Shown: one piece after another, positions 7,181 through 8,654 of the stretch
Layout of the letters: every line of letters starts with the position of its first letter
How positions within the stretch are numbered: position 1 is the first letter of the stretch
Assembly (NCBI GenBank): GCA_027080995.1
Contig: JALWNT010000093.1
Span: forward strand, 1 to 36,272
Length of the DNA stretch: 36,272 nucleotides
DNA from: Campylobacteraceae bacterium
Lineage (GTDB): Bacteria; Campylobacterota; Campylobacteria; Campylobacterales; Sulfurovaceae
Direction: 5' to 3'
The notes under the pieces: generated by a model
The model's database searches: none
Seen by the model: the letters and a program-made list of their open reading frames with translations, nothing else
What the model was told of the DNA's origin: nothing
Program-made: the position numbers and the translations under genes

Positions 7181-7522
7181 CTACCGGCGCAGAGCCCGGG
7201 AGCGTTTCAACGCGTTGTTCCAATCGTTTCGGAGCTGTGAAAAATCTGTTTCGAGAAGGGGGGGTTTGGCGACGAGGATGTAGACGCCGGAGACCAGACG
7301 GGTTTCGCTTTCACGAAAAAGTGCACGCATACGGCGCTTTGCCCGGTTTCGACGGACAGCGTTGCCGACTTTTTTGCCGGCGACGAAAGCGCATGCCTGG
7401 GTACTTCCGGCTTTGAAAAACAGTACAAAATCGGGGGTATGCCAGACTTTGTCCGCCCGGCGATAGACAGCATCAAAATCGCGCTGCCGTTTCAGAGAAG
7501 AAAAACGGGTTAAGCGGCTAAT
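7181..7522 (-). CDS. rnpA: Ribonuclease P protein component, start codon unusual
   Basis: Protein subunit of RNase P, which matures tRNA 5' ends with the RNA subunit. The core is clear: [36 protein letters not shown] (the RNR signature) and ALFRESE, ending at TAG 7183-7181. The start is the problem. No ATG, GTG or TTG lies near the family's normal N-terminus in this frame. The best fit is ATT at 7522-7520, giving 113 residues beginning (M)[12 protein letters not shown], with AAAGG nine bases upstream and a 13-base overlap with rpmH. The alternative is ATG at 7681, upstream of all of rpmH, giving 166 residues as in the Thermus arrangement, but it has no visible ribosome-binding site. A CTG at 7495 is also possible. 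Identity is certain, start is not. Confidence 0.85.
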
Positions 7523-7644
7523 CTTTTTCTGCCTTTTGCACGACGGGCATTGATGATTTTGCGTCCGTTTTTGGTTTTCATCCGGGCACGGAAACCATGC
7601 GTTCTTTTCCGGGGGGTATTGTGGGGTTGATAGGTTCGTTTCAT
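7510..7644 (-). CDS. rpmH: 50S ribosomal protein L34
   Basis: A 44-residue L34, shown by [18 protein letters not shown] and the basic C-terminus ending KGRKRLAA. The length is standard. AAGGA is eight bases upstream of the ATG. It is the first gene of the rpmH-rnpA-yidC-jag-mnmE block. The whole gene lies inside the longer possible reading frame of rnpA in another phase, and its last 13 bases overlap rnpA even if rnpA uses the ATT start. Confidence 0.97.
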
Positions 7645-7730: not shown

Positions 7731-8261
7731 ATGAACTCTACCAAGAAAAATCCGAAATTTCTTGCGGCAAGCCATCTGGGCTCATTGGGCAGACAACTCC
7801 GTTTCGCCGGATTCGACTGCTACATTATAGGAGAAGAATCTACAAAACCGAATTCCTCCTTACCTCCTATTGAAGAAGAGGAACGATACTTCCTGACAAG
7901 AAGCCGCCGTCCCTTCCCTGAAAAACTGGAAAAACAAACCCTCAGACTTCAAAGTACAAATCTGGAGGAGCAGATGCTCGAAATCGCCTTGAACGTCGAA
8001 CTCCGAGAGACATTCGTTCCTTTTACACGCTGCACACTCTGCAATGCACCTCTCAAAAAGATTTCTTCGGATGAAGCGAAAAACCATATCCCTGATCAGA
8101 TATTTCATACGTACAGAGATTTTCGCCAATGCCCAAACTGCCGACGCATCTACTGGAAAGGAGACCATTTCAATCGAATGCTAAAACGTTGGAAAAAGAT
8201 TTTCGAAGAAATTTCAAAAGAGAAAGAGTGCCAGCTTGATTTTTCGGAAAAAGCGCGCTAA
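7731..8261 (+). CDS. Mut7-C (PIN-like) domain protein with zinc ribbon; acidic residues apparently lost
   Basis: A 176-residue protein of the Mut7-C/DUF82 family, a PIN-like nuclease domain followed by a zinc ribbon. Family landmarks are present: [20 protein letters not shown] (residues 9-28), FLTRSRR (~54-60), the zinc-ribbon cysteines CTLCN and CPNC, and the terminal [10 protein letters not shown]. In typical members the first motif reads FLxDxxLGxLARWLR and the second LTRD. Here those aspartates are Ala/Ser (FLAAS) and Ser (LTRS), so a metal-dependent nuclease active site is doubtful while the zinc ribbon is intact. GAGGAG lies 11 bases before the ATG. It is divergent from rpmH, and a tRNA gene follows. 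Confidence 0.8.
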
Positions 8262-8264
8262 AAT
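8236..8264 (+). promoter_or_regulatory. Promoter of tRNA-Thr
   Basis: TTGATT at 8236-8241 and TAAAAT at 8259-8264 are separated by exactly 17 bases, a good sigma-70 match. The -10 ends 17 bases before the first base of the mature tRNA. The promoter overlaps the last codons of the Mut7-C gene. Confidence 0.6.
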
Positions 8265-8281: not shown

Positions 8282-8358
8282 GCTGATATAGCTCAGCTGG
8301 CTAGAGCACCTGATTCGTAATCAGGAGGTCGCGGGTTCGAGTCCCGCTATCAGCTCCA
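8282..8358 (+). tRNA. tRNA-Thr (anticodon CGT)
   Basis: A complete 77-base tRNA. The acceptor stem GCTGATA (8282-8288) pairs with TATCAGC (8348-8354), followed by T and an encoded CCA (8356-8358). The anticodon stem CCTGA/TCAGG encloses loop TTCGTAA with anticodon CGT at 8316-8318, which reads ACG (Thr). The T arm has GGTTCGAGTCC. It stands alone, with the next gene convergent six bases after CCA. Confidence 0.97.
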
Positions 8359-8363
8359 TGTGC

Positions 8364-8654
8364 TTACGCATTTTGCTCTTCATTTCCTTTTCTCTTTTTA
8401 CGCGGTTTCGGCATCAATTCTTTGAATCTCTGATAAGTGATTTTCACAGTTTTCCCTGTCCGAGTAACCGGCAATCTCCCCTCCTCTTCCAGGATTTCGT
8501 TCAACTTCTCTCTGGCTTCAGTCTGAGACATATGTTTGGCGAGATAACGAGCGGTCTTTTTCACTTCGGGGTCACGAAGCAGTTGTTCCATAGGAGAGAG
8601 GGTCTCCTTGTTTTGTTCTTTGACGACTTTTTTTGCTTTTTCCAATAAAGACAT
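8364..8654 (-). CDS. Small basic hypothetical protein
   Basis: A 96-residue cytoplasmic protein that I do not recognise. The start MSLLEKAKKVVKEQN is chosen because AAGGAA lies six bases before this ATG; a longer in-frame extension upstream runs into tamB and has no such site. It is highly charged and probably mostly helical (residues 1-65). The middle (LPVTRTGKTVKITYQRFKEL) might be a small nucleic-acid-binding or winged segment, and the tail PKPRKKRKGNEEQN is strongly basic. It follows tamB by 67 bases on the same strand and may be the last gene of that unit, though it may have its own promoter. Confidence 0.7.
   Translation of the reverse strand: MSLLEKAKKVVKEQNKETLSPMEQLLRDPEVKKTARYLAKHMSQTEAREKLNEILEEEGRLPVTRTGKTVKITYQRFKELMPKPRKKRKGNEEQNA

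Follow-up and report, generated by a model that had tools for sequence, protein, structure and literature searches.

Does a Mut7-C protein in which the aspartates of the putative active site have been replaced, and whose zinc ribbon has been kept, still serve the cell, and in what capacity? The question is posed by a gene in the window, by which we mean the whole stretch of 36,272 nucleotides that was analysed, one complete contig out of the 127 that make up a 1.97-Mb draft genome (G000 in the following). A search of the genome-contig collection gave a single relative, a Nitratifractor MAG, and we therefore take G000 to be a Nitratifractor-like Campylobacterota genome.

Family assignment and genomic position

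The open reading frame at 7731–8261 (forward strand) runs uninterrupted from an ATG to a stop codon and encodes 176 amino acids. The original prediction had placed its product in the Mut7-C family, and a profile search bears this out: residues 8–152 match the Pfam family Mut7-C (PF01927) with 115.9 bits (cut-off 23.3) and an E-value of 2.1e-33, and this is the sole Pfam match at E-values up to 1. A match to the NCBIfam HypF profile (E 0.12) is at chance level and was discarded. Compensation by a second Mut7-C copy was considered and rejected, as G000 contains a single match to the profile.

Upstream, 86 bases separate the gene from the divergent rpmH (7513–7644, reverse strand; a 44-residue ORF for ribosomal protein bL34), beyond which lie rnpA (7184–7519, reverse strand; the RNase P protein) and yidC, and a tRNA-Thr(CGT) gene detected by ARAGORN (8282–8358, forward strand) follows 20 bases after its end. 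Across the genus, a Mut7-C gene was found in 8 of 13 genomes, and the remaining five, four of them at least 99% complete and one 73%, gave no match. Five of the eight copies are intact (G036, G038, G042, G043 and G044) and three are changed in their acids (G000, G037 and G041); all eight lie divergently beside rpmH and rnpA, in the same order, with tRNA-Thr(CGT) downstream, in four cases beyond a trmH-like gene. It had been remarked that the position between rpmH/rnpA and a tRNA gene may be chance, which the same placement of all eight genus copies contradicts, and on this ground we regard the window gene as a true orthologue. At 45 loci outside the genus, inspected over flanks of about 1.5 kb where the contig allowed, rpmH was never found beside Mut7-C.

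The gene that intervenes between Mut7-C and tRNA-Thr in G036, G038, G043 and G044, all with intact acids, is one that we take from its motifs to encode a trmH-like RNA methyltransferase (L061, 2075–2728, and L058, 1958–2584, both on the reverse strand). No close match to it was found in G000, G037 or the intact G042, and it occurs elsewhere in G041, where the acids are lost, and in G046, which is without Mut7-C. With a pattern so inconsistent across the genus, we rejected a link with this gene.

A promoter-like pair (TTGATT-17-TAAAAT; 8236–8264, forward strand), probably that of tRNA-Thr, overlaps the last codons and the stop of the Mut7-C ORF. The promoter scan is weak when taken alone, with two sites against 1.2 expected in shuffled sequences, and visual inspection shows a comparable pair ahead of tRNA-Thr in each of the eight genus copies. 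On the other side of the tRNA gene, the reverse strand at 8364–8654 holds a 96-residue ORF with no Pfam hit, which shares 98.8% identity with its G037 counterpart across 81 aligned residues and is strongly constrained (dN/dS 0.004–0.009 between G000 and G037).

Replaced aspartates and retained residues

Full-length homologues were gathered by three PF01927 searches over overlapping genome samples. At the family level (175 genomes), 38 genomes had matches, comprising 25 full-length proteins with that of the window included, one broken and 12 short; at the phylum level (397 genomes), 31 had matches and 23 full-length proteins were new; and at the order level (398 genomes), 54 had matches, adding 16 new full-length proteins and one new protein cut by a contig end. 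Plasmid records added eight full-length copies from Cyanobacteria, Thermomicrobiota, Actinomycetota, Proteobacteria and one haloarchaeon, these being eight out of 12 matches (three apparent close counterparts were left out and one remnant was dropped). Not counting the three changed copies, the comparison set therefore has 69 rows, 61 from Campylobacterota and eight from other lineages, which form 43 greedy clusters at 70% identity. Outside this count stand G000, G037 and G041, the truncated or broken L027, L088 and L110, and the short matches of DUF5615 type. Viral contigs scanned for Mut7-C relatives returned short pattern matches and no confirmed Mut7-C, and a phage search with one intact Mut7-C query returned no match. 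One of the excluded sequences, L027 (G075:C103:8304-8730), comes from a related genus and represents an apparently broken Mut7-C gene in two overlapping pieces, with stops in the second.

At the sites where the family reads FLxD and LTRD, the window protein reads FLAASHLG and FLTRSRR. Codon 13 (GCA; 7767–7769, forward strand) places alanine where the first invariant aspartate (FIAD) is expected, and codon 58 (AGC; 7902–7904, forward strand) places serine at the LTRD aspartate, and both columns hold aspartate in 69/69 other full-length homologues. The replacement had been predicted for these two positions and turns out to have been understated, in that a third, middle aspartate, conserved in 44 of 45 rows of one alignment and 68 of 69 of the other, is likewise missing: the window has T38 there (codon 38; 7842–7844, forward strand) by the 45-row alignment, or N41 by the 69-row alignment. 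G037 shares A13 and S58 and has, depending on the alignment, T38 or D41 at the middle position, and G041 carries E13, an arginine at the middle position, and A58. It had also been proposed that orthologues be surveyed for the same changes, with the thought that the family might do without both positions; the survey found the opposite, the exceptions being G037 and G041, where both aspartates are likewise replaced.

As the genomes are draft assemblies, one might suspect an error of sequencing or assembly, or an ORF that is open by chance. Against this stand the 115.9-bit family match and the conserved chromosomal position, and the recurrence of A13 and S58 in G037, whose protein is 76% identical, together with E13 and A58 in G041, indicates that the changes in the window are no assembly slip; we consider an artefact extremely improbable. 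On the sequence evidence, the protein has been retained while its putative active site was lost, a lineage-specific change that is real and well supported.

The original prediction also held that the zinc ribbon and the YWKGDHF motif are intact, and we find them so. The first cysteine pair, C101-x2-C104 (CTLCN; 8031–8042, forward strand), is present in all three changed copies, and the segment with the second pair, C134 and C137 (CPNC), and the motif RIYWKGDHF (8130–8171, forward strand; YWKGDHF at residues 141–147) retains C134, C137, W142, G144 and H146, each of which is found in 69/69 others. Eight columns are invariant in the 69 rows, namely the two aspartates, R24, C134, C137, W142, G144 and H146, and G000, G037 and G041 each keep the other six and lose exactly both aspartates. 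The 45-row set has 13 invariant columns, and here too the aspartates are the only two lost, which for a single lineage is a 1-in-78 draw; as the rows are related, these invariance figures are descriptive. When the threshold is lowered to 44/45, the window and G037 lose in addition the middle aspartate and T30, and G041 the middle aspartate, H15 and R52. In a leave-one-out control on the 45 rows, none breaks column 13 or 58, and four break another column, L019 among them at the middle aspartate. Cysteine stands at position 101 in 59/69 others and at 104 in 49/69, so that across the family the acids are more stable than the first zinc pair, and the three changed copies show the reverse. The variability of this pair in the family (L032–L036, L052–L054 and others) consists of serine for C101 in 10/69 and aspartate for C104 in 20/69.

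The surroundings of the lost acids are altered as well: residues ∼38–50 of the window protein are remodelled and slightly longer, and one extra residue follows S58. An alternative reading is that the protein is still a nuclease, its metal held by other acids that have moved into the site. E35 and E49, common to the window and G037, lie near the middle acid where the family mostly lacks them, G037 may offer D41, and the D13E change of G041 is conservative; yet neither the window protein nor that of G037 has an acid at or next to position 13 or 58, and we consider a rebuilt metal site unlikely. An AlphaFold2 model from a two-sequence alignment (window and L001) was too poor to use (pLDDT 40.9, pTM 0.32).

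Number of losses and constraint after the loss

In the YidC tree, the intact G042 is sister to G000 and G037 together (94/94), with the YidC of G037 partial and the deeper branches weak, and the Mut7-C tree likewise groups G042 with this pair (91/82). For YidC and RnpA combined, one tried tree that joins the three changed copies was rejected (AU p 0.007, three trees compared). As the trees of the neighbouring genes separate the changed copies, two losses of the aspartates within the genus appear likely. The acids of the N-terminal PIN-like domain would have been lost once in the common ancestor of G000 and G037, with the protein kept afterwards, and a second time, probably independently, in G041. 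Counting against this account, the Mut7-C tree alone permits a single loss, since one clade of changed copies is not rejected (AU p 0.43 and 0.17), and G037 may have D41 in the middle-acid column.

By parsimony, the sharing of A13 and S58 places the divergence of G000 and G037 after the loss, and the comparison of their genes (7731–8258 in the window, 1991–2515 in L001) thus reports on what followed it. Their dN/dS is 0.274 by NG86 and 0.382 by maximum likelihood (ML), against 0.166–0.290 (NG86, a range that includes 0.274) and 0.145–0.227 (ML) in three intact pairs, and is well above that of yidC (∼0.04). The two proteins differ at 42 amino acids, where neutral simulations with the same number of changes give ∼59; none of 5000 simulations from either sequence was as low as observed, and only 185/5000 and 234/5000 remained stop-free, with the qualification that the simulation ignores codon and GC bias and that the tRNA promoter may also hold the last codons. 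Purifying selection has acted on the window gene after the loss of the aspartates. Between the same two genomes, dS is 0.37–0.49 for Mut7-C, which is about half the value for yidC (0.9–1.1) and similar to that for rpmH (0.48–0.54). The earlier view that the putative metal-site acids were replaced and the rest kept is upheld by the orthologue survey and by the constraint after the loss.

Relative to YidC and RnpA (tree A), Mut7-C evolved at a rate of ∼11 on the stem of G000 and G037 and of 2.5–2.6 on their tips, the intact G042 and G036 being at ∼4.0 and G041 at ∼7. A rate that rises at the loss and is then held down by constraint speaks for a changed role more than for simple decay. GC3 is 0.455 in the window gene and 0.503 in that of G037, against 0.61–0.71 in G042, G041, G036 and G038; the low values fit relaxed codon selection, though the changed G041 has a high GC3.

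The main competing explanation is that the gene is on its way out, its function no longer needed, with the acids lost first and the frame still unbroken. The absence of Mut7-C from 5/13 genus genomes, which makes the gene dispensable, the probable double loss of the acids, the rate burst on the stem, the low GC3 of G000 and G037, and a dN/dS above that of yidC and, by ML, of the intact pairs all favour decay and count against a retained role. They are opposed by the post-loss constraint, with no neutral simulation as conserved and few free of stops, by the other six invariant residues, intact in all three changed copies, and by tip rates that have returned to or below the level of intact relatives. 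We assign decay a real but minor probability. That the gene is still under selection in spite of the acid loss suggests instead that the protein probably works without cutting.

Catalysis and RNA binding in the Mut7-C family

On balance, we lean towards reading the window gene as a positional orthologue of the standard Campylobacterota Mut7-C whose product is probably non-catalytic and has been retained for a role other than cutting, RNA binding being the most plausible. Without its aspartates, the protein would be unable to hold a catalytic metal and hence no longer cut; less certainly, the remaining domain and zinc ribbon may still bind RNA, and the protein might act by occupying RNA, by presenting it or through a partner that it binds. 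The term 'pseudo-nuclease', used in the original prediction, presupposes that the Mut7-C family cuts RNA, and whether it cuts or binds is disputed: passages of Iyer et al. (2006, PMC1779556) connect Mut7-C with PIN RNases through profile searches and through catalytic residues whose pattern is identical, and passages of Busetto et al. (PMC11347159) propose RNA binding as the ancestral MUT7-C function.

Our own profile searches bear on the first of these positions. The intact L006 matches PIN_10 and DUF5615 (PF18478 and PF18480), both with an E-value of 6.6e-4 and below the curated cut-offs, and the intact L024 matches only DUF5615 (E 0.2). From the other side, two DUF5615 proteins of the same bacterial family match the N-terminal half of Mut7-C above its cut-off (E 8.6e-8 and 7e-9). 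The DUF5615 proteins thus give a clear indication that this half is related to PIN_10/DUF5615, and the Mut7-C proteins a weak one. Neither the window protein nor the G037 copy matches PIN_10 or DUF5615, a weak test given that the intact L024 hardly matches either. The DUF5615/PIN_10 proteins differ from Mut7-C in having no zinc ribbon, and two aligned members keep the VDA and SKD aspartates. In profile searches of the PDB, the only plausible relative was MUT-7 (8q66), with weak matches (E 0.0013 at best); matches to collagen, Cys-tRNA synthetase, SLIT and a response regulator were judged to be due to chance, and a DUF5615 protein used as the query found no convincing structure. From these profile ties and the literature, we infer that the acids of intact members hold a metal, which the window protein would no longer do, and that its most plausible remaining role is RNA binding.

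A different starting point would lead to much the same outcome: the acids of Mut7-C may never have formed a nuclease site and may instead have a part in the fold or in holding a different metal or ligand, in which case the window protein would be a structural variant of an RNA-binding protein. The N-terminal part of the MUT-7 C-terminal domain (CTD-N) is described as similar to TOPRIM and receiver domains, with no related PIN domain found by Foldseek or DALI, and it is the same source that takes RNA binding to be ancestral (PMC11347159, in part); moreover, cutting by a stand-alone Mut7-C protein is not shown in the available portions of PMC11347159, PMC1779556, PMC7052010 and PMC9226535. Against it, the two aspartates are invariant in 69/69 prokaryotic homologues, the DUF5615 and PIN_10 matches given above link the domain to PIN proteins, and the residue pattern is reported to be the catalytic one of PIN domains (PMC1779556, in part). 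We hold it to be a minority possibility, which is compatible with the explanation that we favour rather than exclusive of it.

The putative RNA-binding role draws, by analogy, on published animal MUT7-C domains and on Rv0579. According to portions of PMC7052010, Rv0579, which carries a Mut7-C domain, held RNA tightly when purified, and whether it has RNase activity could not be established in that work. In the C-terminal domains of C. elegans MUT-7 (8q66) and human EXD3, the window protein has counterparts with a MUT7-C domain and a zinc finger that contributes to RNA binding; the finger is predicted to join the two halves of the animal domain without direct RNA contact, and earlier work had termed this domain a deteriorated PIN-like one (PMC11347159, in part). 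MUT-7 differs in that its domain is joined to an active DEDD exonuclease and carries an insertion that separates the cysteine pairs (PMC11347159, in part), whereas the window protein stands alone and has no insertion. In profile alignments with weak matches, an aspartate of MUT-7 falls on the first acid position, and the LTRD position has none. Counting against the RNA-binding part, the isolated animal domain binds RNA weakly (PMC11347159, in part), and the charge of the window protein is ordinary: the net charges of the window and G037 proteins, +5 and +6, lie within the span of −3 to +7 seen among five intact copies of the genus, and the notion of an unusually basic protein was rejected on this basis.

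With the stand-alone prokaryotic form of PF01927, the window protein shares a match over its whole length, the four zinc cysteines, the YWxGxH motif and the HLG/LR/G core, and it differs from it by lacking both invariant aspartates and the middle one. The RNase II-like fold of fungal Ssd1 is unrelated to that of Mut7-C. Fungal RNase II-like pseudonucleases such as Ssd1 nevertheless offer a parallel, with repeated loss of the nuclease site and a retained RNA-binding role (PMC8097288 and PMC8934651, both in part), and differ in being eukaryotic and in that RNA binding is reported for them and proposed here for the window protein. Among the literature matches listed, taken by title and start of abstract, there was no report of acid-less prokaryotic Mut7-C proteins.

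More speculatively, a stand-alone Mut7-C protein may have become, on two independent occasions within one genus and at one locus, a protein that binds RNA without cutting it, in parallel to the animal MUT-7 domain; we regard this double conversion as conceivable and rather doubtful. If true, the selected role would be RNA binding, and cutting an activity that can be shed. With intact, acid-less and absent versions at one locus, the genus provides natural matched pairs for the role of the aspartates. Elsewhere in the family, the Mut7-C gene of Natrinema (L087, CP031304.1) lies immediately after a PolX gene, an association already reported for Halobacteria in passages of PMC9226535.
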